A stretch of DNA of 64,000 nt from a virus. A program made the translations under genes and the position numbers. The stretch is taken from IMG/VR virus record IMGVR_UViG_3300007640_000029, positions 52,155 to 116,154 of that record; one strand, 5' to 3'. Below, one piece after another: positions 9,931-64,000 of this stretch. The number at the start of each line of letters is the position of its first letter. Within the stretch, counting starts at the first letter, position 1. The notes under the pieces are model-generated. The model saw only the letters and a program-made list of their open reading frames with translations, was not told the DNA's origin and did no database searches.

Positions 9931-10599
9931 TTGAGAACTCTTATCGGAATAGATTTTTCTCTGAACTCGCCAGCTTTTTGTTTGCTTAGGGATAATCAAT
10001 TTAAATGGGGATCACTTACCCGAAGTGATCGCACAGAAGAATCACTAAAAAGATCTAAAGCAAAACCATTCGCATTCCTCTCCGAAATGGATGGGTTTGA
10101 TCTCATGTTTATGGGAAAAGAGAAAATGCCTGAGGAATACTCCGAAAGGGAGAGGCTTAAGATTGATTACTTTTCCGACCTAGTCGACCGATTCTGGGAT
10201 TCAGTCATATCTCACACCCAAGAGGGTGACGAGATCTATATAGCTATGGAGGGTTTAAGTTTTGCATCCAATGGTAATGCCCTAATTGACATCTCTATGG
10301 CTACTGCCCTACTTAGAAAAAAAATAGTTGACGAGGTGGGTAGTTCGAATTTTTATGTTTTTTCCCCGACCTCCATTAAGAAATTCGCTATTAAAGGGAA
10401 TGCAAAAAAACATCAGCTCTATGATTCCCTAGTTAATTGTAAAAGAGCTGAAACCAATCTGAGCTATTTCACTAATATACTTGAAAGTAATAGGGGAGAA
10501 TGGATAACGCCCAGCGGAAATGTAAATAAACCTCTGGATGATCTTATTGATGCTACCTGGATTTGTATTTTTTTAGATGGAAGACTTAAGGAGGATTAA
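9931..10599 (+). CDS. RuvC/RNase H-fold nuclease-like protein
   Basis: A 222-residue protein. The start (TLIGIDFSLNSPAFCL) is the first beta-hairpin of an RNase H-like fold with an Asp in GIDxS. A second acidic strand is IYIAMEGLSF (about residues 106-115), and the C-terminal KPLDDLIDATWICIF supplies the last Asp pair. These are the positions used by RuvC-type Holliday junction resolvases. Start codon TTG 9931. A resolvase or packaging-junction nuclease role follows from the fold. The end overlaps the nucleotidyltransferase gene by 23 bases. Confidence 0.65.
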   Translation: MRTLIGIDFSLNSPAFCLLRDNQFKWGSLTRSDRTEESLKRSKAKPFAFLSEMDGFDLMFMGKEKMPEEYSERERLKIDYFSDLVDRFWDSVISHTQEGDEIYIAMEGLSFASNGNALIDISMATALLRKKIVDEVGSSNFYVFSPTSIKKFAIKGNAKKHQLYDSLVNCKRAETNLSYFTNILESNRGEWITPSGNVNKPLDDLIDATWICIFLDGRLKED

Positions 10600-11323
10600 T
10601 ATACTGATACCCCTAGGCGGGATGGGAAAAAGATTTTCCGATGCTGGGTATAACGAGATTAAACCTTATATCAAGGTCATCGACGATTCTATGATACGGA
10701 CCGTAGTCGGAAACCTCCACAATGAGTCTGCCCATTTTATATTCGTGATCAACGAGGAGCACATATCTGTCGATGAGTTTAAGAGGCACATATCCGATAT
10801 GCCTATTTCACATGACGTTATTTCCACCCCGAAATTAACAGAAGGACCAGCCTGTACTGCTCTACTGGCCCAGTCTATCATTAATACCAATGATCCTTTG
10901 ATCATAGTAAACTGTGATCAGATTATATTGGACTATGATCTTAATGTTTTATCCAAGTTTGCTTCAAATACGGCTTGTGATGGGTTCTTAGGATGCTTTT
11001 TATCTTCCTCTAAAAAGAATAGTTACGTCAAATTGGATCCAAACGGGGAAGTTTGTGACGTGAAGGAAAAAATAGTTATATCAAATATAGCTACTAACGG
11101 ATTGCACTACTGGAAGAGAGGGTCCGATTTCGTAGAATCCTCGATGGAGATGATAGAAGCTAATGACCGGTATAACAGTGAGTTTTACGTTGCTCCCTCA
11201 TATAACTATTTGATAAAGAGGGGTAAAAAGATATTGCCATATTTCTTCAACCTTCATTTCCCGATAGGTACCCCGGAAGATCTTGAGATTTATAAAAATA
11301 AAATAGCCAATGGAAGTATCTAA
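10577..11323 (+). CDS. Sugar-phosphate nucleotidyltransferase-like protein
   Basis: A 248-residue GT-A type nucleotidyltransferase. The N-terminal INILIPLGGMGKRFSDAGY matches the GxGxR(F/L) nucleotide-binding loop, followed by KPYIKVIDDSMI. VNCDQI (about residue 112) supplies the metal-binding Asp. The family activates sugar 1-phosphates with NTP. It is the first gene of a tightly overlapping cassette with a cupin, a RuBisCO-like protein, a GDPD-like protein and a glycosyltransferase-like protein. The sugar cannot be read from sequence. Confidence 0.7.
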   Translation: MEDLRRINILIPLGGMGKRFSDAGYNEIKPYIKVIDDSMIRTVVGNLHNESAHFIFVINEEHISVDEFKRHISDMPISHDVISTPKLTEGPACTALLAQSIINTNDPLIIVNCDQIILDYDLNVLSKFASNTACDGFLGCFLSSSKKNSYVKLDPNGEVCDVKEKIVISNIATNGLHYWKRGSDFVESSMEMIEANDRYNSEFYVAPSYNYLIKRGKKILPYFFNLHFPIGTPEDLEIYKNKIANGSI

Positions 11324-11630
11324 AATAGATGATTACCAGGGTGGATGGTTCGTTGGAGACTTCCTTCCCTCCGCTTATAAAACCGATCAATTTGAGATAT
11401 GCTTTAAAAGGCATAAGAAAGGAGAGGATTGGCCAGCACACTATCACAAAGAAGCTGACGAAATAAACTACCTCCACAAGGGTAGAATGATTATACAGGA
11501 CAAAATACTCAAAGCTGGTGATGTTTTCGTTATCAGGAAATACGAGATAGCTAATCCTGTTTTCCTCGAAGACTGCGAGGTTTTTATAGTTAAGACACCC
11601 TCTAAACCGGGAGATAAGTATGAAATCTGA
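11310..11630 (+). CDS. Cupin-domain protein
   Basis: A 106-residue single-domain cupin. Motif 1 is WPAHYHKEADEINYLHKGRM (two His plus Glu as metal ligands), followed by LKAGDVFVI; a conventional motif-2 His is not obvious. Small cupins in sugar cassettes are often epimerases or isomerases, or sense metabolites. It overlaps the upstream gene by 14 bases and the RuBisCO-like gene by 11, so the three are probably translated together. Confidence 0.7.
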   Translation: MEVSKIDDYQGGWFVGDFLPSAYKTDQFEICFKRHKKGEDWPAHYHKEADEINYLHKGRMIIQDKILKAGDVFVIRKYEIANPVFLEDCEVFIVKTPSKPGDKYEI

Positions 11631-12810
11631 ATTATTTAAATCGAGAAATCAAATAGATGCTGACAAGTACTTCTTTGCTAAGTATTATGTTGAATGTTCT
11701 AAGAATTTAGCATCTGCTGCTTGGAATATAGCAATAGGTCAAAGTGTGGGTAACCCATCATCCAGGAGTGTCTGGGAAACTGATGAGCTCTTTGAGAATC
11801 ACTCTTGTTTGATCGTCGGTGATATGGGAGATATGAGCAATGAAAAAACGGGGGAGGTCACTATTGCTTTCCCTGTGATAAACATTGACTTTAAAACTGA
11901 CGGGGTTGCTCACTTGTTGGTGAATGTAATGGGAGGTCAGATGGATATAGCCGAAATAAAAAAATGCAAGTTGATTGACATAGATTTTCCGGAATGTGTT
12001 TCTGATTGTTTTATGGGACCTAAATATGGGATTGATGGTATAAGAAAATTTACCGGTGTCTACAACAAGCCACTCCTCGGAGGAATACTAAAGCCAAAAA
12101 CTGGGGTCTCGCCACAAGTCATGCTGGAGATGGTTAAGGAAATGGTTGAGGGAGGAGTGAATTTCATCAAGGAGGATGAAATACTTTCCAGCCCATCATT
12201 CTGTAAGATAGAGGACCGGGTTCCACTTATCATGGATTATTTGAAAGATAAGAATGTGGTTTATTGTGTTTCTATCCATTCAGATCCTGCCTATATACTG
12301 GAGAGAGTAAAACAGGTTTACGAACTAGGAGGTAATGGGATACACGTTAACTTTTGGTGCGGGCTGGGAGTTTATAAAAACATAAGGGAGCTCGATCTCC
12401 CGCTTTTTATGCATTTCCAAAAGAGCGGAGATAGAGTTATAACAAACCCGGATCACCAATTTAGCATCTCTTGGCCTTTCATGTGCAAGCTTGCTGGAAT
12501 GATGGGGGTGGACTTTATTCACTCGGGAATGATTGGCGGATATTATCCTGCTGACGAGGAGGAGGTTTTAGCCGCTATAGAGCAATCAAGAAATCAAGGA
12601 ACTCTCCCTGCTTTAAGCTGTGGATTCCACCCTGGTCTTGTGGACCAGATAAACGAGCAGGTTGGTGTTGATTACCTAGCAAATGTAGGAGGAGCAATGC
12701 ACGGTCACCCAAGCGGAACTAAAAGTGGTGCGATTGCTATGAGGCAGGCAATCGATGGTGAGAGGGGAAAAGAGTATAGAGAAGCTATCTATAAGTTTGT
12801 GAATTCTTGA
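11620..12810 (+). CDS. RuBisCO-like protein (form IV type)
   Basis: A 396-residue RuBisCO large-subunit homologue. GGILKPKTGVS gives Lys158 and Lys160 of the KPK motif. NFIKEDE gives the carbamylatable Lys184 with Mg ligands Asp186 and Glu187. His265 (LFMHF), His301 (IHSG), Ser333 (LSCGFHPG) and the GHPSGTKSGA phosphate-binding loop are also present. In loop 6, true RuBisCO has HSGTVVGK; here it is HSGMIGGY, so the catalytic Lys is Tyr308. Loss of that Lys indicates enolase, isomerase or decarboxylase-type chemistry rather than CO2 fixation. The substrate is probably a sugar phosphate of the surrounding cassette. Such a gene is unusual in a phage. Confidence 0.88.
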   Translation: MKSELFKSRNQIDADKYFFAKYYVECSKNLASAAWNIAIGQSVGNPSSRSVWETDELFENHSCLIVGDMGDMSNEKTGEVTIAFPVINIDFKTDGVAHLLVNVMGGQMDIAEIKKCKLIDIDFPECVSDCFMGPKYGIDGIRKFTGVYNKPLLGGILKPKTGVSPQVMLEMVKEMVEGGVNFIKEDEILSSPSFCKIEDRVPLIMDYLKDKNVVYCVSIHSDPAYILERVKQVYELGGNGIHVNFWCGLGVYKNIRELDLPLFMHFQKSGDRVITNPDHQFSISWPFMCKLAGMMGVDFIHSGMIGGYYPADEEEVLAAIEQSRNQGTLPALSCGFHPGLVDQINEQVGVDYLANVGGAMHGHPSGTKSGAIAMRQAIDGERGKEYREAIYKFVNS

Positions 12811-12816
12811 GAGCAG

Positions 12817-13260
12817 ATGATATTAATATCACATCGCGGAAATATTGATGGTCCTAATTCCAAAAGGGAGAACGATCCTGATTATATAGTTGAAGCTTTA
12901 TACAATTACGAAGTTGAAATAGATCTCTGGTTCATTGACGGGATGTTTAAACTTGGACACGATGAGCCACAACACGAGATTCAATACGAATTCCTTTTGA
13001 AGAACTCCAGGAAGCTTTGGATCCATTGTAAAAATTTGCTAGCTTTTCGTGAGCTTTCCAGAATAGATCCGGCGGGGGATTTTCTAAATTATTTTGTTCA
13101 TGAATCCGACGATGTGGTTTTTACTAGTAAGGGTTATCGCTGGGCCTTAGTAGGAAAGCAACCAATAGAAAATAGCATAGCCGTTATGCCTGAAGTTAAT
13201 GATGAGGATATCGCGGTCTGCTCAGGAATTTGCAGTGACTATATAGGAAAGTATAGATGA
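12817..13260 (+). CDS. GDPD/PI-PLC-like TIM-barrel protein
   Basis: A 147-residue protein. ILISHRGN near the start, VEIDLWFIDG (Glu-x-Asp) and KLGHDEP match the three active-site elements of glycerophosphodiester phosphodiesterases. The length is about half that of a full GDPD, so this is a minimal or shortened barrel. It follows the RuBisCO-like gene by 6 bases and overlaps the next by 4. It may cleave or make a phosphodiester on the sugar built by this cassette (inference). Confidence 0.6.
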   Translation: MILISHRGNIDGPNSKRENDPDYIVEALYNYEVEIDLWFIDGMFKLGHDEPQHEIQYEFLLKNSRKLWIHCKNLLAFRELSRIDPAGDFLNYFVHESDDVVFTSKGYRWALVGKQPIENSIAVMPEVNDEDIAVCSGICSDYIGKYR

Positions 13261-14042
13261 GAGTAGCTTTACTTCTTTCGGGTCAATTTAGGGAAGGTCT
13301 GGAATGTTACCCCTATATAAAAAGCAGGATACTTGACAAGTACTCCCCGGATGTTTTCATCTCATCCTGGAATCCCTCTGACGAGATAAGAGAAACCGTT
13401 CAGCCCTATACGGGTAACCTGAGAGATAGTCTTAGCGTTGGTGATGCTATTTCCCTCTATAAGCCAAAATCCATCCTGATGGAGGATTTTGAATCGGAGA
13501 CTATAACCAAAATAAGGGAGAGATCGATGATTTATGAGGGTTATTCCCCACTGAATGGCGAGATTAATCCGCAGTCTGTTTTTTGTATGTGGTATAAAAT
13601 CAATTCCTCATACCATCTTATGCAGAAGTATGAGAGATCCGTGGGTAGGAGATATGACTATATTATAAAGGGAAGATTTGATATAAAGGTGCACAACGAT
13701 CTTTTTTTCAATTTTGGAAAAAATATGATCGCTATCCCTCAGGGATTTGATTGGAGGGGAGGTATTAACGATGTGATAGCTTATGGAGCTAGGGATGCAA
13801 TGGGTCACTATTGTAGCCTCTATGAAAATCTTGAGAACTATCTTACAAGGGATGCGATATTCTTTCACCCCGAGACTCTTTTAAGAAACCATTTACTCAC
13901 ATCGGAATATGGTGTTGTGAGAAGTGACCTTCAGGTTTCACTCCGAGGGATCATGTTACCCACGGAGCAAGTAAGAAAGGGTAACGATATAAAAAAAAGT
14001 TCGGGATATATACAGTCTAGGGGAAACTTTTGGGACACTTAG
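13257..14042 (+). CDS. Glycosyltransferase-like protein
   Basis: A 261-residue protein starting MRVALLLSGQFREGLECYPYI, which resembles surface-polysaccharide glycosyltransferase-like families. YDYIIKGRFDIKV (about residues 138-150) is a candidate DxD-type metal site in the form RxD. It is the last gene of the cassette and overlaps the GDPD-like gene (ATGA). The acceptor could be host surface glycan, virion or DNA; none is indicated. Confidence 0.55.
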   Translation: MRVALLLSGQFREGLECYPYIKSRILDKYSPDVFISSWNPSDEIRETVQPYTGNLRDSLSVGDAISLYKPKSILMEDFESETITKIRERSMIYEGYSPLNGEINPQSVFCMWYKINSSYHLMQKYERSVGRRYDYIIKGRFDIKVHNDLFFNFGKNMIAIPQGFDWRGGINDVIAYGARDAMGHYCSLYENLENYLTRDAIFFHPETLLRNHLLTSEYGVVRSDLQVSLRGIMLPTEQVRKGNDIKKSSGYIQSRGNFWDT

Positions 14043-19860: not shown

Positions 19861-20300
19861 TGGATTTTACTAATAGACATAACGACCTAATGTACGGTGC
19901 TCTGGAGGTTTTCTTGGAGAATGATTCCCCGCTCTTGGTAGGAAGAGAAGGTGACAATATAGAATTTTCCACGGTACTCGGTAACCACGGCAGCTTATCC
20001 GAGAATAAGAATGGAGACTGGGATATTTTATTGGAGGATGATGTTGTTTATACCATGGAGAAAGAAATATTTGACCTTATAACTAAGGAAGATAGTGCCC
20101 CCGACCTGGATGATCTTTTACTGGAGTTATCTGAGCTATACCAGAAAGATTTGAGAGATAAATCGAAAATTCTATTGGAAACTATCATAAAAGGTATAGG
20201 TTATTTAATAGTAAATGGGAAGGCTAAGTCTGAAATGGATCTTCAGTTTGGTTCTCACTTCATTAAAGCCGGTTCGAATAACGATATAAACTATAATTGA
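19860..20300 (+). CDS. Unknown protein paired with nucleotidyltransferase
   Basis: A 146-residue acidic protein (DLDDLLLELSELYQKDL, about residues 80-97) with no recognised family. The ATG overlaps the stop of the nucleotidyltransferase-fold gene, so the two are likely translated together and may form a pair. The stop overlaps the region of the next start. Confidence 0.5.
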   Translation: MDFTNRHNDLMYGALEVFLENDSPLLVGREGDNIEFSTVLGNHGSLSENKNGDWDILLEDDVVYTMEKEIFDLITKEDSAPDLDDLLLELSELYQKDLRDKSKILLETIIKGIGYLIVNGKAKSEMDLQFGSHFIKAGSNNDINYN

Positions 20301-20305
20301 TAAGA

Positions 20306-22222
20306 ATGGCGGGGATTAATCATCTATATGACATGTACAACAAAAAAGGAGCAGATTTTATAAATCAGCTCTTTAATCAGTTTGTAACGATTAATGAAAA
20401 GATGGATGGATCTGCCTTTTCTTTCGAGAGAGATAGAGAAAGCGGTAAATTTAGATTTTATCGGAGGGACCAAAGAAATCCTATTACCCTGGTAGATCGT
20501 ACCTTGATGAAATACTACGAGAAACCAATCCAGTATATAGAATCACTACCCCCACATATACTTGAGAGAATCCCTAGAGGATGGAGATTTGGACTTGAGT
20601 ATTTTGCTAACAAGGCTCCGGTTGAAATTGTATATGATAGGATCCCGAAAAATAACCTGATACTTTCCTACGTACACCAAATGGGAGACGGGGGTAAGAT
20701 AAAGAAGACCGTACAGGACAAAGAAAAATTGGATGACTGGGCGGACTTACTGGGGGTAGAGAAACCCCCCATTATATTTCAGGGTAGATTAAGTGAGGAT
20801 CAGAAATCCGACTTAATGGAATTTATGGAAACCCCCTTCAAGGAGTTGGTTGAAAAGTTCCGGACTAATAGCTTCGTGAGATTCATTATAAAGACTCTAA
20901 ATCCTGAATTAACTAAAACAGCACTGAATGATGATCTGGACAAGGACGTGGAGGGTGTAGTTTTCAGGTTCGGCGAGCCGGATAAAGAGAGTGATACCGT
21001 GCTTGCCAAAATGGTTGATCCGGTTTTTACAGAGATGGCTAAACAGAAAGCTCAGAATCGAAAGACTAAAAAACCTAGTGATTTCTTGGGGATAACTATA
21101 ATGGATGTTATGAACTTCATTCTGGAGGAAGGAATTGACTCCTTTGATGTACAGGGTGAAAGCGACGACGAAAGATACATCTCATTCATGTCCGATGTTT
21201 TCGTGAAATTCCTAGATCGTTATTCCAAAAAATATGCTGGTACTGATTTCGAAGAGCCCGAATATTTAAAGAGAGATGACTTTAGGTTAAATATGGATAT
21301 GGTTAGAGATAGCAGGGTTCTCAAACTAGTTAAGCAGGATGAATCTTTCGAGTCTTTATTTAAGTTGATGCTTAATTCGTTCCGGAAAATCAAGACCAGA
21401 GCTGGTGGAATCATAACGGTTGGTATGATGGACCAACTTAATTCCCTGATTAAGGACATAAAGGAGTACATCAAAAAGCCTAAGAGTAAGGTTAATGAAT
21501 CACACTTTTTCTCATTCGATGAGTTTAGAAGGGAGTTTGTTCAGCCGGTTAATTATATCAAGGAGGAAGATGATGTCTCAGATAGCGACGAGGACCATTT
21601 CCATTCTTATGATGAGTTTATAAATACTTTGGAAACCATAGATGCTAATTCTTCAGCTCCTGAAGAAATCCAAGTGATTGAGGAAGATGAGGATGAGAAT
21701 AATTCACAGAAGGTTAATATCATCATGGGGAGATTTCAGCCATTTCATTCAGGGCATTTAAAAATGGCCAAACATATGATGGATAAAAATGGGTACCCAT
21801 CTTACCTACTGGTTGTTCATCCTGGACATAATAAATCGGGTAAATCCCCATTCGACCCCGAAACTGTTAGGAGATATATGGAAGCTGTTGTTCAAAACAA
21901 CGACGAAATAGCCGGATATGAGATGGTAACTAGGGGTCTTTTAGGGTCTGGCGTAGCAAAATTGATCTCCATGGGATATGACCCTCAGCTAGTAGGTGCT
22001 GGGGAGGATCGTATCGACGATTACTCTAAACAGATGGATTACATAAAGGTATCCGACATAAAGGACAAATTAAGTCCAGGCTTCTCACTGGAAGAGACCC
22101 CAAGGGGTACCTCCGGAACTAAGGTTAGACAAACACTTTCGGATAGGGACTTTTCTAAATTCAAGAAATTGGTTCCAAGGGAGGTTTCCAACCTTTATAA
22201 TGATCTAATAAAGGGAGTGTAA
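20306..22222 (+). CDS. RNA ligase-NMN adenylyltransferase fusion
   Basis: A 638-residue two-enzyme fusion. N-terminal RNA-ligase-type nucleotidyltransferase: motif I EKMDGSAF (Lys32), motif III RFGLEYF, motif IV EGVVFRF and motif V LAKMVDP. C-terminal NMNAT-type domain: GRFQPFHSGH (about residue 474) and GTSGTKVRQTL (about 607). The acidic linker holds two capsid-targeting-like segments, SFDEF (about 403) and SYDEFINTLE (about 430). ATG 20306 is preferred to TTG 20297, which overlaps the previous stop. A role in RNA repair with NAD synthesis is likely, and processing in the linker is possible. Confidence 0.85.
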   Translation: MAGINHLYDMYNKKGADFINQLFNQFVTINEKMDGSAFSFERDRESGKFRFYRRDQRNPITLVDRTLMKYYEKPIQYIESLPPHILERIPRGWRFGLEYFANKAPVEIVYDRIPKNNLILSYVHQMGDGGKIKKTVQDKEKLDDWADLLGVEKPPIIFQGRLSEDQKSDLMEFMETPFKELVEKFRTNSFVRFIIKTLNPELTKTALNDDLDKDVEGVVFRFGEPDKESDTVLAKMVDPVFTEMAKQKAQNRKTKKPSDFLGITIMDVMNFILEEGIDSFDVQGESDDERYISFMSDVFVKFLDRYSKKYAGTDFEEPEYLKRDDFRLNMDMVRDSRVLKLVKQDESFESLFKLMLNSFRKIKTRAGGIITVGMMDQLNSLIKDIKEYIKKPKSKVNESHFFSFDEFRREFVQPVNYIKEEDDVSDSDEDHFHSYDEFINTLETIDANSSAPEEIQVIEEDEDENNSQKVNIIMGRFQPFHSGHLKMAKHMMDKNGYPSYLLVVHPGHNKSGKSPFDPETVRRYMEAVVQNNDEIAGYEMVTRGLLGSGVAKLISMGYDPQLVGAGEDRIDDYSKQMDYIKVSDIKDKLSPGFSLEETPRGTSGTKVRQTLSDRDFSKFKKLVPREVSNLYNDLIKGV

Positions 22223-27836: not shown

Positions 27837-29252
27837 TTGATGATAGTTGATGTTGAAAATAAAGGAACTTACTTAAAGGTTTCAACCTTTTCTGAGGATG
27901 GGAGCCTTATTTTTGTTGATGTACCTGTTCCCGAAAAGGAAAGGTTCATCTGGGAAAAATGCTCACCCTCTGATAGGAGAAAAGAGGAGGATTGGGTTAG
28001 CTGGGATGGATTTCCGGTTAGAAAGGTTAAATCCCAGAAATATGACAAATATAGGATGGTTCAGATATTGGAAGAAGCTGACCCCGAAATAACCAAGCCT
28101 CTCTTTTCATTCCAGACCCCCAAGAAATACTTTGTCGATATTGAGGTCGAGATGACCGATGAAATGAGGGATTCCCTGGATACGGCTTCAGCTAAAAATA
28201 GAGTTCTTTCTATAGGTATAGCTACTGATAAATGTCATGCGATCATGTTGGCTTTGGATCCTCTGACATCCGAACAGCAAGCGGATATACACAAGAGGAC
28301 GAATGAATATCTAGCTCCTATGGGTGACGAATGGAGCTTTAAATATCATCAATTCGAGAGCGAATATGATATGCTCTATACTTTTTTCAAAAACCTAGCA
28401 CCTAAGATGTCTTTGATCACAGGTTGGAACTGGTTTGGTTATGACTGGCCTTATTTGGTTAACAGGGCCAAAAGACTGGGCATAGATCCTAAGATAATAT
28501 CCCCCGCTAATTGGTTGATAGGTAAGAATAACCTTCCGATGCATCTCCTGATGGTCGACTACCTGGAAATATACAAGAAGTGGGATAGGGTAATAAAGAT
28601 AAAAGAAAGTAATAGACTTGACTATGTCGCAGAGAAAGCCACAGGTCTTAAAAAGATAGTGTATAATGGATCTCTGAGGGATTTGTACCAATCGGATTTT
28701 CCGAAATTTATCCTCTATAATGTTATTGACTGTGCTCTTGTCCATTACATCGACGTAAAGCTCAAGACCATGCTTACGTACTTTAAGATTGCTAATCTCA
28801 ATGGGGTCGAGATCAGTAGGGCTCTTTCTCCGGTGTGGGCAACTGAAGTAATGATGCTTCGAAAATTCCTTGAGAGAGGTCAGGTTTTTGTAAACGAGAG
28901 GAAAGAGGAAAGTCACGTCAAATTTATAGGTGGATATGTGAAGGAGCCTATAAAGGGCCTTCACGAATGGGTAGCCTGTTATGACTTCGCTTCACTGTAT
29001 CCAAACACTATTGTACAATGGGGAATATCTCCGGAGGTCTATAAAGGTAAAGAGGGGGTTAACATATCGGAAGTTAAGGATGGCTGGGTTAGAACCTCGT
29101 CTAAAGCCGTTTTTGGAGGAGACTCAGAAAGTCCAGTTCTGAAGACCATAATTAAGGATCTTTATGCCAAAAGAAAGGCAACTAAGGACCGGATGTTAAA
29201 ACTCCAGATCGAAATCGACCAGATGGAGAAACAATTGAAAAAATTAGGGTAG
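27837..29252 (+). CDS. 43: DNA polymerase B, N-terminal half (exonuclease and palm motif A)
   Basis: A 471-residue N-terminal piece of a T4 gp43-type polymerase. Exo I is KYFVDIEVEM (about residue 99), Exo II ITGWNWFGYDWPYL (about 198), Exo III YNVIDCALVHYID. Palm motif A is CYDFASLYPNTIVQW (about 383). The protein ends in a charged heptad-like helix (RMLKLQIEIDQMEKQLKKL), just where the fingers should start. Motifs B and C are in a separate gene at 50515, about 21 kb away. The two halves presumably assemble into one enzyme. Confidence 0.92.
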   Translation: MMIVDVENKGTYLKVSTFSEDGSLIFVDVPVPEKERFIWEKCSPSDRRKEEDWVSWDGFPVRKVKSQKYDKYRMVQILEEADPEITKPLFSFQTPKKYFVDIEVEMTDEMRDSLDTASAKNRVLSIGIATDKCHAIMLALDPLTSEQQADIHKRTNEYLAPMGDEWSFKYHQFESEYDMLYTFFKNLAPKMSLITGWNWFGYDWPYLVNRAKRLGIDPKIISPANWLIGKNNLPMHLLMVDYLEIYKKWDRVIKIKESNRLDYVAEKATGLKKIVYNGSLRDLYQSDFPKFILYNVIDCALVHYIDVKLKTMLTYFKIANLNGVEISRALSPVWATEVMMLRKFLERGQVFVNERKEESHVKFIGGYVKEPIKGLHEWVACYDFASLYPNTIVQWGISPEVYKGKEGVNISEVKDGWVRTSSKAVFGGDSESPVLKTIIKDLYAKRKATKDRMLKLQIEIDQMEKQLKKLG

Positions 29253-33352: not shown

Positions 33353-34939
33353 ATGAGCAAAATATATGGCTTTTACGGTGGTGCTCACGATGCTTCCATA
33401 GTTTATATAGAAGACGGGAAGATCAAGATAGCTATCCAGGAGGAGAGAATAACCAGAGTTAAGAGCGGGGATACGGATTTTTCTTATCCCGCTCTTTCTT
33501 TGGAAAAAATACAGGATTTTACAGGAGTGCCTATAGACGAGGCAGACTATCTGACTACTGCTACTCCAACCTCGTATGTCTTCATAAAAGATAACCTCGG
33601 GGACAGACAAGTGAGAGAATTTCCACATCACGAATGTCACGCTGCTTCCACTTATTTTACTTCAGGATTTTCTGGAAAATGTATGATGGTTTCTTACGAT
33701 GGTGGAGGGGACGGTAACTACGGAGACGTCTGGTTATGTGAGGATGGCAAAATGGAACAGGTTTTTTCTATGCCCTCCCATATTTTCGGATCGTTAGCTA
33801 ACTTATGGACTCAAGCAACATCTATCCTTGGATGGAAACCTCATCAAGATGAGGGCAAAGTCATGGGTATGTCTGCTAACGGAAGATATGACGAGTATCT
33901 TCAGTCGCTAATGAACCAGATAATTTTTTATGAAGAGCCAGGTTCTCTCTCAATAAAAAATGCTGGAACGGATCTTTTTGCTAATTATGCTTTTAACAAG
34001 GTAAGAGAAAGAGGAATATTGGATTCTGAAGAAGGTAGACAGAATTTTGCTAGAGCTGTACAGGATGTTACTGAGAATATAATGGTTCGCTTTATAAAGG
34101 ACCTTTGTTATAAATATCCGGAGCATTCTAAAAAAATAGGGCTATCTGGTGGTCTTTTCCATAATGTTAAGATGAACCAGAAGATAAATGAGATAGACCT
34201 TATAGACGAGATATATGTCGTCCCGGTAATGGGAGACGAGGGGGTTTCTCTAGGTTCCGCTATATGTATGGCCAGGGACCTTGGCGAAATTAAACATCCA
34301 TTTAAGCTTGATAACTGTTTTTATGGATTGGACTACAACCAAGAAGAGATATCGGAAGCTATCTCCCAATACGACGACTTGGATGAAAGTGATCTTTCGC
34401 TGGATGATTTGGCTTCACATATAGTTCGGGGCGATATAGTGGGTCTATTCAACGGTAAATTCGAATATGGTGCTAGAGCTCTGGGTGCAAGGTCCATCTT
34501 GGTTAATCCCTCAGATCCAGAAATGCACGCAAAACTTAATGAAAGGTTGGGAAGGAATCAGGTTATGCCTTTTGCACCTGCTGTTCTCTCTGAGTTTTCA
34601 GAAGATTTATTTGAATTCGGGTGGAAGTCTAAGTATTCCTCTGAATTCATGACTATTTGCTATACTGTTAAGAGCGAATGGAGGGATAAAATATCCGCTT
34701 GCTACCATAGGGAGGATAAGACTTCCAGACCTCAATTGGTTAATAAGGAAACAAATGGGTACTTCTGGGAAGTTATTAATGCATTCTACAAAAAAACTGG
34801 TATACCTGCGGTCCTAAATACTTCTTTCAACGGTCACGGGGAACCCATAATAGATAATCCTCATCATGCCATTCGTCATCTGAGAAACGGTACGATAGAT
34901 ATTCTTGTTATTGGGAATAGGGTACTTAGAAAAAAATAA
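33353..34939 (+). CDS. NodU/CmcH-family carbamoyltransferase
   Basis: A 528-residue protein. IYGFYGGAHDASIVYIEDG is the first ATPase-like strand-turn; HHECHAAS, SYDGGGDGNYG and LSGGLFHNVKMNQKI are the YgjD/Kae1-like core; GKFEYGARALGARSIL and VLNTSFNGHGEPI mark the C-terminal domain. The family uses carbamoyl phosphate and ATP to add a carbamoyl group to sugars, antibiotics or tRNA. The next two genes follow tightly and may act with it. Confidence 0.85.
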   Translation: MSKIYGFYGGAHDASIVYIEDGKIKIAIQEERITRVKSGDTDFSYPALSLEKIQDFTGVPIDEADYLTTATPTSYVFIKDNLGDRQVREFPHHECHAASTYFTSGFSGKCMMVSYDGGGDGNYGDVWLCEDGKMEQVFSMPSHIFGSLANLWTQATSILGWKPHQDEGKVMGMSANGRYDEYLQSLMNQIIFYEEPGSLSIKNAGTDLFANYAFNKVRERGILDSEEGRQNFARAVQDVTENIMVRFIKDLCYKYPEHSKKIGLSGGLFHNVKMNQKINEIDLIDEIYVVPVMGDEGVSLGSAICMARDLGEIKHPFKLDNCFYGLDYNQEEISEAISQYDDLDESDLSLDDLASHIVRGDIVGLFNGKFEYGARALGARSILVNPSDPEMHAKLNERLGRNQVMPFAPAVLSEFSEDLFEFGWKSKYSSEFMTICYTVKSEWRDKISACYHREDKTSRPQLVNKETNGYFWEVINAFYKKTGIPAVLNTSFNGHGEPIIDNPHHAIRHLRNGTIDILVIGNRVLRKK

Positions 34940-52115: not shown

Positions 52116-52168
52116 TCCACTCATTCAGAAGAATGTGTGGAAGGATAAATCTATCCTGTCCATTGTAT

Positions 52169-52194: not shown

Positions 52195-53673
52195 ATGGGA
52201 AAAATATCCCCGGCACTTAGCTATAAATCTTTTCTTAATGAAGCGGAAGAGAGGGAATCAGTAGATATCCTTATCTTAAGCGGGCAATCTTCCCCTAGTA
52301 AAACTGCTAAATCTTTCGTCGAAGAATGCTCTAGTCGGGGAATAGAGTGTAGAGTAGTTAATGTTAATAATTGTGTACTGGAAAAAGTCTATAATGGACA
52401 TCTTCTTAGGGAAGAAAACGGGGATGAGGTAGTTGAGATCTTGATACGTCCTGAAACAACAGCGGTAGTACCAAGGAGAGGGGTAATAACCAATTCCTAC
52501 ACCAAGAGGATCATGTCCGAATTGGAGAACTCCAGATACTTTTGTCTCAATTCTCTCGAATCCATCGAGGTGTGTGAAAGTAAATACCTAACTTCGCAGG
52601 TTCTCGAAGACGCCGGTATACCGGTTCCTAGATATTCCCTCGTAAGCGGAGAAGAGACTTTGGATAGGTCCCTTGAAGAAGTAGGAGGAGAATTTCCAGT
52701 AGTCATGAAGCTATTATCGGGGACTCAAGGTATAGGAGTATCCATAGTAGATTCTTATGCTTCACTTAAGTCGGTTTACCAGACAATAAGAAAGCTTGAT
52801 CCTGACGGGGAGATACTGCTGCAAGAAAAGATTGACTCCAATTTCGATGTTAGAGTTCAGGTTATTACCAAGAAATTCGATCCTCTGAATCCGGGAAAGG
52901 ACAACTGCGAGATTCTTGGCGCTATGAAAAGAGAGGCAGTTGAAAAGGACTTCAGAACTAATTATTCATTAGGCGGTAGCGTTTCTGCGTATGAGCTAAC
53001 TGAGGAGATTGAGAAGATAGCTTGCGAATCTGCTAATGCAGTATCTTGTCACTGGTGTGGTGTTGATATTATGATAGATTCTCAATCTGGGAATCCATAT
53101 GTTCTGGAAGTTAACTCCTCGCCAGGCACGGAGGGAATATCGGAGGCTATAGGAAAACCTATCGTCGGTGATGTGATAGATTTTATAGTTGACAAAAACA
53201 ACTGGTCATACACGAAGATGGAAGTTGGTTATTTGGAGACAGTAGAGATTCCACAGATAGGAAAATTTGTAGCCAAGTTCGATACCGGAAATGGTTCTAC
53301 TGCGAGCTCCATACACGCGGATGAAATTAGTGTAGAGGGCGATAAGCTCCTTTGGAAGATAGGTGATGTGGAGCTTGAGAATAAGATAGTTGGTTACACC
53401 AATACCGAGGTTGGCCGTGAAACCATCGAGAGACCTATAATAGAGGTTGATCTAGTTTTCAATGATGTAAAGATCCCTAATGTAAGAATTGCTCCTACCG
53501 ATAGAATATCCAAATCTACTCCGCTTTTAATCAACAGGAAGCTTATGAAAAGACTTGGAGTTATGGTAAATCCGCATAAAGCATTTGTAATATCTGAGCC
53601 GATGTCTGAATACGCACCGCTCAAAGCAAAGGGGAAACGTCACGGTGGGATAGAGTTTAGCTCGGATAGCTAG
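52195..53673 (+). CDS. RimK-type ATP-grasp ligase fused to RimB-type aspartic-protease-fold domain
   Basis: A 492-residue fusion. Residues 1-16 (MGKISPALSYKSFLNE) carry a capsid-targeting-like YKSFLNE. Residues about 25-330 are a RimK-type ATP-grasp ligase: VMKLLSGTQGIGVSIV, ILLQEKID, FRTNYSLGGSVSA, GVDIMID and VLEVNSSPGTEGI. Residues about 345-475 match the RimB/ATP-dependent zinc protease family: FVAKFDTGNGSTASSIHA (Asp363) and LINRKLMKRLGV. RimK adds Glu to ribosomal protein S6; RimB-type proteins act with it. Both are separate in bacteria that I know. Confidence 0.88.
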   Translation: MGKISPALSYKSFLNEAEERESVDILILSGQSSPSKTAKSFVEECSSRGIECRVVNVNNCVLEKVYNGHLLREENGDEVVEILIRPETTAVVPRRGVITNSYTKRIMSELENSRYFCLNSLESIEVCESKYLTSQVLEDAGIPVPRYSLVSGEETLDRSLEEVGGEFPVVMKLLSGTQGIGVSIVDSYASLKSVYQTIRKLDPDGEILLQEKIDSNFDVRVQVITKKFDPLNPGKDNCEILGAMKREAVEKDFRTNYSLGGSVSAYELTEEIEKIACESANAVSCHWCGVDIMIDSQSGNPYVLEVNSSPGTEGISEAIGKPIVGDVIDFIVDKNNWSYTKMEVGYLETVEIPQIGKFVAKFDTGNGSTASSIHADEISVEGDKLLWKIGDVELENKIVGYTNTEVGRETIERPIIEVDLVFNDVKIPNVRIAPTDRISKSTPLLINRKLMKRLGVMVNPHKAFVISEPMSEYAPLKAKGKRHGGIEFSSDS

Positions 53674-61700: not shown

Positions 61701-62119
61701 GGGGCTGAAATGGAATCGACAGGAGGCCGAAAGTTCTTTGAATTGATGCAGGCAGAGTTAGCATTGGAAACTCTATAATAACCTATGTAACTTTCTAAAT
61801 GGCGAAAATCCATTTTACATCCTTGCAGGACTAGCTCCTGTTGAGGAAGCTGAAGTTGCTCTTGCAGCCTAAGCAACGGGGGTCGACTCCCTAGGAACAG
61901 AAAGTCGAAATCCAGATCTTCCTATGGTGGAAATGGAGTATGCGGGTCACAGGCCGGAGCCCGTCTAAACCAACTCTGGGACCAGGTACTTTTGATAGGT
62001 TTGATTCCCACATATATGAAACCTTTCTATTTTGATCTTTTAGAAAAATGATCTAAGCCTGTGAACGATGTTCTTAGGATTTGCCTAGCTGGACGTGGGT
62101 TCGAATCCCACCAGCTCCA
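61701..62119 (+). ncRNA. ssrA: Transfer-messenger RNA (tmRNA)
   Basis: 419 bases. The 5' end GGGGCTGAAATGGAATCGACAG is the tmRNA signature and pairs with CAGCTCC at 62112-62118 to form the acceptor stem. The T arm is GTGGGTTCGAATCCCAC. CCA is not encoded. The tag frame starts at the resume codon GGC 61801 after TAAAT and runs 23 codons to TAA at 61870-61872. The tag begins GENPFYILAG and ends EEAEVALAA. Bacteroidota host tags are short (about 9 residues, GEN...ALAA type), so this tag keeps both ends but is much longer. It would rescue stalled ribosomes and mark products for Clp proteases. Confidence 0.93.
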
Positions 62120-62128
62120 CAAATCTTT

Positions 62129-62239: not shown

Positions 62240-62312
62240 GCCTCTATAGCTCAGCCGGTAGAGCGTCTCATTTGTAATGAGATGGTCGGCGGTTCAAGTC
62301 CGTCTGGAGGCT
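62240..62312 (+). tRNA. tRNA-Thr (anticodon TGT)
   Basis: Acceptor GCCTCTA / TGGAGGC; anticodon loop TTTGTAA flanked by TCTCA/TGAGA; T loop TTCAAGT. CCA is not encoded. Confidence 0.93.
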
Positions 62313-62324
62313 CTGATTAGGTTT

Positions 62325-62417
62325 GCTCGTTGGAACGGTTTACCTTGGTAGACTACCTGAATCAAAATCCGAATGAGGGTCCCACTCCTCTTCGGGGTAA
62401 TGGGGGAAAAAACGAGC
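62325..62417 (+). repeat. Structured spacer closed by inverted repeat
   Basis: GCTCGTT (62325-62331) pairs with AACGAGC (62411-62417). An internal hairpin ACTCC/GGGGT lies near 62384. It fills the gap between tRNA-Thr and tRNA-Ser; the T arm needed for a tRNA is absent. Confidence 0.5.
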
Positions 62418-62421
62418 TTTA

Positions 62422-62506
62422 GGAGAGGTGGCAGAGTGGTCGAATGCGCCAGTCTTGAAAACTGATGTACCGCAAGGTACCGGGGGTTCGAATCCCTCCC
62501 TCTCCG
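62422..62506 (+). tRNA. tRNA-Ser (anticodon TGA)
   Basis: Acceptor GGAGAGG / CCTCTCC; loop CTTGAAA; long variable arm TGTACCGCAAGGTACC; discriminator G. CCA is not encoded. Confidence 0.93.
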
Positions 62507-62537
62507 CAAAAAAAATCGTAGTACCGTTAGGGAACAA

Positions 62538-62577
62538 GGTGAAAGGAACACTCACCGCAGGTTAAGCGATATCCTGC
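62538..62577 (+). repeat. Two spacer hairpins between tRNA-Ser and tRNA-Leu
   Basis: GGTGA (62538) / TCACC (62552) and GCAGG (62557) / CCTGC (62573) lie back to back and fill the spacer. Confidence 0.5.
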
Positions 62578-62581
62578 AAAT

Positions 62582-62663
62582 GCCTCGGTGGTGTAATTGG
62601 TAGCCACGTATGCCTTAGGAGCATATGCCATAGTGCGTGTCGGTTCGAGTCCGACCCGGGGTA
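62582..62663 (+). tRNA. tRNA-Leu (anticodon TAG)
   Basis: Acceptor GCCTCGG / CCGGGGT with two wobble pairs; loop CTTAGGA flanked by TATGC/GCATA; long variable arm; T loop TTCGAGT; discriminator A. Confidence 0.9.
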
Positions 62664-62704
62664 CTAGAATTAGTAGACTTTCTTTATTTTCTTTCAGCGT
62701 GTCT

Positions 62705-62714
62705 GATATATAAC
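62705..62714 (+). promoter_or_regulatory. Late-promoter-like motif GATATATAAC
   Basis: It lies 5 bases before the HNH gene ATG, inside the tRNA cluster. Confidence 0.5.
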
Positions 62715-62719
62715 ACACT

Positions 62720-63169
62720 ATGAGAAATGACATACAAGAAAAGATGCCTCAGATACTAGAATGGGTGGAAGAGGGGATGCCTAAGAATATGATCTGTAAA
62801 AAGATCGATTGCAGACCGAGAACCTTAGATTCTTACCTTAAAAAGAATGATATAGAATATAAGGGCAATCAGGGAGGCAAGGACTACAAAATAGCTTCTA
62901 ACAAGATGGATGATCTTGAATGGGTAGAGAAATGGTGTAGAAAAGGAACAACCCTATCTTCTTCCAAGATCAGAAATAGATTGATCTCGGCGGGCATTAA
63001 AGAAAAAAAGTGTGAAGAATGCGGAAGATCTTCGTGGAACAGTAAAGAAATTCCGTTGGATTTGCATCATATAAACGGTGATCGATTTGATAATCGTATA
63101 GAGAATTTGGAAATCCTTTGTAAAAACTGTCATGGACAAACAAAAAGTTACAGTATAAGGAAATCCTAA
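62720..63169 (+). CDS. HNH endonuclease in tRNA cluster
   Basis: A 149-residue protein. The N-terminal helix-turn-helix-like part (ICKKIDCRPRTLDSYLKKND) precedes the HNH core: CEECGRSSWNSKEIPLDLHH, INGDRFDNRIENLEILCKNCH (CxxC, HH, N, H). Its insertion between tRNA-Leu and a damaged tRNA-like sequence, with its own promoter motif, is typical of a free-standing homing endonuclease. Confidence 0.88.
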   Translation: MRNDIQEKMPQILEWVEEGMPKNMICKKIDCRPRTLDSYLKKNDIEYKGNQGGKDYKIASNKMDDLEWVEKWCRKGTTLSSSKIRNRLISAGIKEKKCEECGRSSWNSKEIPLDLHHINGDRFDNRIENLEILCKNCHGQTKSYSIRKS

Positions 63170-63175
63170 AATAAA

Positions 63176-63230
63176 GGGATGCTTACAGCAATTTTCAGCA
63201 ATAGATTCGTAAACTATAAAACAGCATCCC
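63176..63230 (+). ncRNA. Hairpin with TACAGCAA / CAGCAA loop
   Basis: GGGATGCT (63176-63183) pairs with AGCATCCC (63223-63230). The loop starts TACAGCAATTTTCAGCAAT, echoing the hairpin at 58141-58197. Confidence 0.5.
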
Positions 63231-63240
63231 GTCTTCATAT

Positions 63241-63317
63241 GGGCACGTATCTCCTCAAGCTTATACCTTGTAGAAAGAGTAATTGGTTACATGTGGGTTC
63301 AATCCCCGCCGTGCCTA
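63241..63317 (+). pseudogene. tRNA-like remnant without a readable anticodon arm
   Basis: Acceptor GGGCACG / CGTGCCT and T arm GTGGG-TTCAATC-CCCGC are intact with discriminator A. The 45 bases between do not form a normal D arm or anticodon stem; the AGAGTAATTGGTTAC segment looks like a D arm in the wrong place. It may be a decayed or rearranged tRNA beside the HNH gene, or a tRNA mimic. Confidence 0.5.
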
Positions 63318-63334
63318 CCCTAGGAAACAATCCC

Positions 63335-63408
63335 GCTCTCTTAGCTCAGGCGGTTAGAGCAACTGACTCATAATCAGTAGGTCGTAGGTTCGATCCCTAC
63401 AGGGAGCA
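63335..63408 (+). tRNA. tRNA with CAT anticodon (elongator Met or Ile2)
   Basis: Acceptor GCTCTCT / AGGGAGC; loop CTCATAA flanked by ACTGA/TCAGT; T loop TTCGATC. The G1-C72 pair rules out an initiator. Met versus lysidine-Ile cannot be decided by eye. Confidence 0.9.
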
Positions 63409-63410
63409 CT

Positions 63411-63515
63411 AAGGAAGGATGCTAATTCACAGTGGCACGGATTTGGAAAAAGACGGGAGGCTTGGTACCGGTGTGGAACGGGCAAATACAAGTACTCGCC
63501 AGATCTTCCTTCCTT
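63411..63515 (+). repeat. Structured spacer closed by inverted repeat
   Basis: AAGGAAGGA (63411-63419) pairs with TCCTTCCTT (63507-63515). The spacer fills the gap between the Met and fMet tRNAs. It shares TGGAACGG with the spacer at 62325. Confidence 0.5.
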
Positions 63516-63524
63516 TCATCATAT

Positions 63525-63597
63525 CGCGGGATAGCAGCAGCGGTAGCTCGCCAGGCTCATAACCTGGAGGTCGGGGGTTCGATTCCCTCTCCCGCAA
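63525..63597 (+). tRNA. Initiator tRNA-fMet (anticodon CAT)
   Basis: CGCGGGA / TCCCGCA gives the unpaired C1-A72 that marks bacterial initiators. Loop CTCATAA with stem CCAGG/CCTGG; the usual three G-C pairs are two plus an A-T. It closely follows E. coli initiator tRNA from AGCAGC to the anticodon. CCA is not encoded. Confidence 0.92.
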
Positions 63598-63599
63598 CT

Positions 63600-63634
63600 A
63601 AGGTCTTCAAAAGGTACCATTGGGCCCGGACCTT
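63600..63634 (+). repeat. Short spacer closed by inverted repeat
   Basis: AAGGTC (63600-63605) pairs with GACCTT (63629-63634), between tRNA-fMet and tRNA-Asn. Confidence 0.45.
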
Positions 63635-63639
63635 TCCAT

Positions 63640-63713
63640 TCCTCCATAGCTCAGTTGGTTAGAGCGGTTGACTGTTAATCAATAGGTCCCTGGTTCGAGC
63701 CCAGGTGGGGGAG
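63640..63713 (+). tRNA. tRNA-Asn (anticodon GTT)
   Basis: Acceptor TCCTCCA / TGGGGGA; loop CTGTTAA flanked by GTTGA/TCAAT; T loop TTCGAGC; discriminator G. Confidence 0.93.
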
Positions 63714-63715
63714 CA

Positions 63716-63829
63716 AGAGGTAGTGAAGCTGTAGTTAATGAAACGGTGCTAAAAGGATGAAAAAGGGTTTGTATTAGTCCGAGCGTAAGCAAGTCATTAA
63801 CCAGAAACCCCGAAAGACCCGAAACCTCT
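63716..63829 (+). ncRNA. Structured spacer RNA candidate
   Basis: AGAGGT (63716-63721) / ACCTCT (63824-63829) encloses GTTAATGA (63734-63741) / TCATTAAC (63794-63801). The two nested stems suggest a discrete RNA between tRNA-Asn and tRNA-Gly, comparable in setting to the stable RNAs of unknown function in the T4 tRNA cluster. Confidence 0.5.
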
Positions 63830-63843
63830 CAATAAAAAAAAGA

Positions 63844-63897
63844 CCAACAATTGTTCCGCGGCAATTAGGTTGGAAGTGTAGGTTAACTCTTTCCTAC
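63844..63897 (+). repeat. Two hairpins upstream of tRNA-Gly
   Basis: CCAACAATTG with CAATT and GTTGG (63844-63873), then GTAGG / CCTAC (63878-63897). Confidence 0.5.
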
Positions 63898-63902
63898 TCT
63901 AA

Positions 63903-63975
63903 GCGGGTGAAGCTCATGTGGTCGAGCACCAGCCTTCCAAGCTGGGGGCAGCCGGTTCGAATCCGGTCACCCGCT
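63903..63975 (+). tRNA. tRNA-Gly (anticodon TCC)
   Basis: Acceptor GCGGGTG / CACCCGC; loop CTTCCAA flanked by CCAGC/GCTGG; T loop TTCGAAT; discriminator T. The cluster probably continues past the window end. Confidence 0.93.
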
Positions 63976-64000
63976 CTAACTACCGTTTCCATTCTAAAAA

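Follow-up and report, generated by a model that had tools for sequence, protein, structure and literature searches.

A RuBisCO-like protein with a non-carboxylase active site in a conserved, probably glycan-directed sugar-activation module of uncultured phages

What might a phage do with a protein of the RuBisCO superfamily? The question is raised by a 64,000-nucleotide stretch of viral DNA (positions 52,155 to 116,154 of IMG/VR record IMGVR_UViG_3300007640_000029; hereafter the window), in which the forward strand at 11620-12810 encodes a 396-residue RuBisCO-like protein (RLP). The original prediction had delimited this ORF exactly and proposed that its product, in a phage, enolises a phosphorylated substrate without fixing CO2. 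The phage setting is borne out by the 116-kb virus record, which carries replication genes for gp32, helicase, primase, DNA polymerase and topoisomerase as well as ribonucleotide reductase. Of an 856-position polymerase profile, the DNA polymerase ORF at 27837-29252 (471 aa) matches no more than about positions 109-495; the gene may be split, with the remainder elsewhere. The window also encodes a Nol-like carbamoyltransferase (33353-34939; phrog_1601, 5e-89), another possible sugar-modifying gene; a 641-residue protein with a C-terminal cytidylyltransferase-like domain (20297-22222; phrog_3041) and an N-terminal part without annotation; a protein similar to ribosomal protein S6 glutaminyl transferase (52195-53673; phrog_2599, 1e-18); and a phage tmRNA with the tag GENPFYILAGLAPVEEAEVALAA, followed by seven tRNA genes (61701-62120 and 62240-63976).

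Membership of the RuBisCO superfamily is far above chance. The RLP matches PF00016 at E=2e-33, above the cut-off, and PF02788 at E=2e-4, and its PDB matches, which span most of its length, are form III RuBisCOs and MtnW (E about 1e-37 to 1e-34). An AlphaFold2 model based on 44 relatives has a mean pLDDT of 93.3; its top fold matches in the PDB are form III RuBisCOs (TM 0.89), and it superposes on Geobacillus MtnW and on the Chlorobium RLP with a TM of 0.86 in each case. The curated NCBIfam equivalog cut-offs are all widely missed: 181.7 vs 497.45 for form III RuBisCO, 157 vs 409 and 129 vs 514 for MtnW, and 142 vs 700 for OiaX. With a RuBisCO fold, an incomplete set of carboxylation residues and a tree position among RLPs, the protein belongs to form IV, taken as a grade.

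In a residue audit, the RLP and its 44 relatives were aligned with references from forms I and III, MtnW, OiaX, IV-Photo and further RLPs (spinach numbering for the references). K175, K177, K201, D203, E204 and H327, and the phosphate-site residues S379, G381, G403 and G404, are kept in 44/44 clade members. Among these are the residues that had been named as the Mg site (Lys184, Asp186 and Glu187, equivalent to the Mg/carbamate triad K201, D203 and E204), the KPK lysines 158 and 160 (K175 and K177) and His301 (H327). The second histidine that had been named, His265, is two residues off: the counterpart of His294 is Gln267, and residue 265 is Phe in the Patescibacteria homologue. The motif His294-Arg295-x-x-His298 aligns with Gln267-Lys268-Ser-Gly-Asp271, in which Q267 and K268 are each found in 44/44 members and D271 in 43/44. 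Invariant replacements across the clade are also seen at E60 (G40), T65 (N45), W66 (P46) and N123 (G106). The lysine of loop 6, K334, is Tyr308, as had been claimed, in the RLP and all 44 relatives, and the alignment shows no substitute lysine in the loop, which reads GMIGGYYPADEEE vs GTAVGKLEGD in form I. In RuBisCO, E60 and K334 contact each other; both are lost in the RLP clade. The combination of Gln294, Lys295, Asp298 and Tyr334 with an intact KPK was found in none of the other references compared. In this pattern the enolising half of the site (K175, K201, D203, E204) is intact and the CO2-handling half gone; in line with the earlier reading of a form IV pattern, the protein probably enolises a phosphorylated substrate without carboxylation. 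Because the positions of K334, E60, T65, W66, N123, H294, R295 and H298 are replaced, activity as a carboxylase is, on sequence grounds, very unlikely.

A maximum-likelihood tree was made of 50 proteins, comprising the window RLP, 18 other virus RLPs, one Patescibacteria protein and references. The window RLP, the 18 virus RLPs and the Patescibacteria protein group in a single clade (100/100). Its branch is long (2.34), and it falls on the RLP side of the tree (99/94). MtnW stands closest to it, on a weakly supported branch (94/76) that carries a long-branch warning; the IV-Photo RLPs (1tel, 2qyg) and OiaX form clades separate from it. Among the RLP groups knowingly represented in the tree, such as MtnW, OiaX and IV-Photo, we read it as a deep clade of its own; IV-GOS, a group reportedly named by Tabita et al. 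(2007), and IV-NonPhoto (the MTRu-1-P isomerase of R. rubrum) are further form IV groups. The original prediction that the RLP serves neither methionine salvage nor apiose/isoapionate metabolism agrees with this placement and with the missed cut-offs; because the protein lies outside both of those clades, its substrate may be new, as had also been suggested.

Uncultured phages hold about 200 members of the clade, and a Patescibacteria genome holds a further one. A single pattern scan of IMG/VR gave at least 198 relatives, and the 80 best were retrieved; among cultured phages, no RLP match was found in the 50,697 records of INPHARED. A scan of GTDB species genomes with two exact peptide patterns, which more distant cellular relatives may have escaped, gave one Patescibacteria MAG contig with an RLP of 57% identity; a profile search of 380 Patescibacteria genomes gave this RLP again and otherwise only form III or other RuBisCO-type proteins. 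A haloarchaeal plasmid carries an RLP related to OiaX (L090:7986-9251; 516 bits vs the cut-off of 700) that adjoins a four-carbon acid sugar kinase gene; genes for enolase and pyruvate kinase lie in the vicinity.

The original prediction saw neither known pathway near the gene and named no other. Our results point to one: the RLP gene stands third in a conserved four-gene module in a glycan-biosynthesis setting, in the order nucleotidyltransferase, cupin, RLP and GDPD-like protein. In the window all are on the forward strand and tightly packed, neighbours, including a putative glycosyltransferase gene that follows, overlapping by 4 to 14 bases or standing 6 bases apart. The first gene (10577-11323) encodes a 248-residue sugar-phosphate nucleotidyltransferase (PF00483, E=5e-11; phrog_3980), the profile of which matches the NDP-sugar pyrophosphorylase 4evw over its full length (E=3e-34) and next mannose-1-P guanylyltransferases, RmlA and GlmU; it reaches no NCBIfam equivalog cut-off, hence no sugar or nucleotide is assigned. 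The second (11310-11630), which overlaps the genes on both sides, encodes a small single-domain cupin of 106 residues (phrog_24762, E=1e-30; Cupin_2, E=3e-4, under the Pfam cut-off), in which H44, H46 and E51 of an HxHx4E motif are invariant and the third His that cupin motif 2 usually supplies is absent; its remote relatives in the PDB are KdgF and other small cupins. Downstream of the RLP gene, at 12817-13260, lies the gene for a miniature GDPD-like protein of 147 residues (phrog_34507), a probable phosphodiesterase. A Pfam search of it gave nothing useful, and its profile matches GDPDs in the PDB at E=3e-5. Its invariant residues are H6, R7, E18, N19, E34, D36 and H48, and the His/Glu/Asp pattern of glycerophosphodiester phosphodiesterases is kept in its first part. 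It seems to be a shrunken member of the GDPD family, since a confident model of the 147 residues (AlphaFold2, pLDDT 97.5) resembles GDPDs weakly (best fold match 1v8e, E=5e-3). The 261-residue protein that follows (13257-14042), the gene of which overlaps that of the GDPD-like protein, belongs to phrog_13607, of unknown function, and has no Pfam match; we call it a putative glycosyltransferase from its context only.

The module holds together across different phages. Once near-duplicates were removed, 57 RLP lineages remained with 3 kb or more of sequence on both sides. Within 3 kb of the RLP gene, 56 of the 57 have the nucleotidyltransferase, 49 the cupin (missing nearby in the other eight) and 50 the GDPD-like gene, almost always on the strand of the RLP, and farther out there are just four matches to the module families in the remaining 720 kb. 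The phage backbones that flank the module vary between loci. The sole lineage without any module gene nearby (L041:9989-11170) has odd-looking surrounding ORFs. In the Patescibacteria contig (L022:6452-9170) all four genes stand side by side; many glycosyltransferase and methyltransferase genes surround them, and the stretch in view holds no phage structural gene. SDR epimerases lie near the RLP in 27 of 63 virus loci, and a glycosyltransferase-like family of the type of the putative glycosyltransferase, not a constant partner, in 26 of 63; also recurrent there are FkbM and other methyltransferases, UDP-GlcNAc 2-epimerase, DegT aminotransferase and GT11, and GT2/25 enzymes occur as well. Because the module is conserved and stands in a glycan setting, biosynthesis is favoured over salvage or catabolism.

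A sister module is found in two isolated cyanophages, SynMITS9220M01 and Bellamy, which have the nucleotidyltransferase, cupin and GDPD and lack the RLP. Here the nucleotidyltransferase carries a fused C-terminal LacAB_RpiB domain (PF02502, E=4e-33 in SynMITS9220M01). This domain is related over its full length to ribose-5-phosphate isomerases B of solved structure and keeps the catalytic Cys and His, with changes adjacent to the Cys. In GenBank the fusion is labelled only 'phosphatase' in both phages (SynMITS9220M01_192, L131:5838-6995; Bellamy gp206, L132:6838-7995). The 80 virus RpiB loci that we examined include 79 with the fusion, 78 with the cupin, 67 with the GDPD and none with the RLP, while none of 160 RLP loci has the RpiB domain; related and overlapping loci are included in these counts, which are therefore not independent. 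In a third type of module a HAD phosphatase is fused to the nucleotidyltransferase. The cyanophage system is like that of the window in its module partners, with an isomerase where the window has the RLP, and differs from it in that the isomerase has an unrelated fold and is fused, and in that the nucleotidyltransferase belongs to another clade. In the nucleotidyltransferase tree the RLP-module and RpiB-module types form two clades with a single split. The cupin tree requires two changes between module types and the GDPD tree nine, of which at least four are forced by starred branches; only the GDPD, and perhaps the cupin, is common to both types of module. The idea that RLP and RpiB perform the same reaction in the same pathway was not upheld in full: the nucleotidyltransferases split once by module type, therefore the sugars may differ and the RLP need not perform the RpiB reaction.

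The predicted fold, active site, clade, linkage, glycan setting and alternation with RpiB lead us to infer a type of reaction, a sugar product, an order of steps and a destination. At the level of the pathway, a biosynthetic nucleotide-sugar/glycan module is well supported and very likely. For the RLP itself the case for a non-carboxylase activity is strong, that for a sugar-phosphate substrate good. It is rather likely that it acts as a metal-dependent isomerase or epimerase of sugar phosphates and supplies a nucleotide-sugar pathway that serves glycan synthesis. As to the chemical step, isomerisation or epimerisation is our leading guess because RLP and RpiB are both enediol-forming, and we put it at about an even chance. 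The substrates of characterised RLPs are ketose phosphates or keto acids, on which the enzymes work at C2/C3, and none is known to carry out an RpiB-type 1,2-shift, which counts against the isomerase reading. The RLP would enolise and reprotonate its substrate to give a sugar phosphate (an isomer or epimer), which the nucleotidyltransferase, encoded two genes upstream, would couple to a nucleotide. Completion or release of the activated unit would fall to the cupin and the GDPD-like phosphodiesterase, and its transfer to a virion or host-surface glycan to phage glycosyltransferases. The modules could then share one scheme, in which a sugar phosphate is made, activated and processed and the first enzyme is interchangeable, the RLP being the first here. 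More tentatively, and with somewhat less than even confidence, we suggest that a Mg-dependent RLP isomerase or epimerase has replaced an RpiB-type isomerase in a phage pathway for an unusual activated sugar; neither such a reaction nor such a pathway is known from the RuBisCO superfamily.

Other explanations have to be set against a sugar-phosphate isomerase or epimerase. That the RLP is a divergent working RuBisCO that aids CO2 fixation by the host is scarcely credible. Virus rbcL has been reported as a carbon-fixation gene (PMC8506154, PMC12615777), and the best PDB and fold matches of the RLP are form III RuBisCOs (PDB 2cwx, 3a12, 8dht), with which it shares the fold, the KPK lysines, the Mg/carbamate triad, H327 and the phosphate-site glycines. 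However, the two are only about 28% identical, the form III score is 182 vs 497, K334, E60, N123, H294 and R295 are replaced in 44/44 members, as are T65, W66 and H298 in the RLP, and its constant companions are genes for sugar activation and glycans, with no RuBP pathway near the RLP. It is also very improbable that the RLP is the methionine-salvage enolase MtnW (2,3-diketo-5-methylthiopentyl-1-phosphate enolase; PDB 2oem, 2zvi), with the cupin standing in for acireductone dioxygenase. Methionine salvage does pair an RLP with a cupin-fold dioxygenase, MtnW too is without K334, its fold is similar (TM 0.86), and it is the nearest, if weakly supported, group in the tree (94/76, with the long-branch warning). 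Yet the equivalog scores are 129-157 against cut-offs of 409-514; MtnW has Lys at the N123 position, His at 294 and Leu at 327, where the RLP has Gly (44/44), Gln and His, and the RLP also keeps K177. Its neighbours are biosynthetic, the constant ones being the nucleotidyltransferase and GDPD, with no salvage phosphatase. On the scores and residues we reject the salvage reading.

A less remote but still unlikely alternative to isomerisation or epimerisation is another RLP reaction, that is, decarboxylation, transcarboxylation or 1,3-isomerisation, which would supply the same nucleotidyltransferase with a sugar acid, polyol or ketose phosphate that is branched or shortened. Precedents exist in the decarboxylation/transcarboxylation of 3-oxo-isoapionate-4-phosphate and the 1,3-isomerisation of MTRu-1-P (PMC6302742). 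OiaX (3-oxo-isoapionate-4-phosphate decarboxylase) and the catabolic RLPs likewise act on sugar-derived phosphates, the N123 position is Gly in OiaX as here, and the nucleotidyltransferase clade is unlike that of the RpiB modules. Against this, the OiaX score is 142 vs 700, the tree sets OiaX apart, and OiaX-type RLPs keep K334, H294 and R295, lose K177 and adjoin four-carbon acid sugar kinases in catabolic operons; the catabolic OiaX reading itself we reject on score, tree and neighbours. The destination of the sugar could also differ from a surface or virion glycan. T4-like phages sugar-modify their own DNA, and in the window the module adjoins the gp32 and primase genes, so that the sugar might modify phage DNA or protein. 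We consider this improbable: most other loci have glycosyltransferase and methyltransferase surroundings, and the Patescibacteria copy lies inside a glycan locus.

Virus RbcL genes have been described from Great Salt Lake (PMC8506154) and an estuary (PMC13390420), and measured carboxylase activity has been reported for one virus rbcL gene from contaminated soil (PMC12615777). In the GOS survey, 65 RuBisCO homologues fell into none of the known clades (PMC1821046). A landfill virus protein clustered with 'RbcL-like' proteins, a function also noted in IMG/VR viruses (PMC12607003). Those genes resemble the window RLP in being virus-encoded and RbcL-like, and they may belong to the same clade; they differ in being listed under CO2 fixation, in a text where we saw neither a module nor an active-site analysis. 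In a literature search of open-licence papers we found no RLP tied to a nucleotidyltransferase/cupin/GDPD module or to glycan synthesis; the RLPs of known function that could be named act in methionine salvage, the MTA-isoprenoid shunt and apiose breakdown (PMC6302742). The clade also bears on the virus 'rbcL' reported as carbon-fixation genes in viromes (PMC8506154, PMC12615777, PMC13390420). Because the carboxylation residues are absent and the genes lie in sugar-activation modules, an rbcL annotation of its members would mislead carbon-cycle inference, and virus 'rbcL' genes that fall in it should not be taken to mean carbon fixation. The four-gene module and its RpiB sister make the question of the substrate directly testable with small proteins. 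If our reading is true, a biosynthetic role would be added to RLPs, which are otherwise named in salvage or catabolism.
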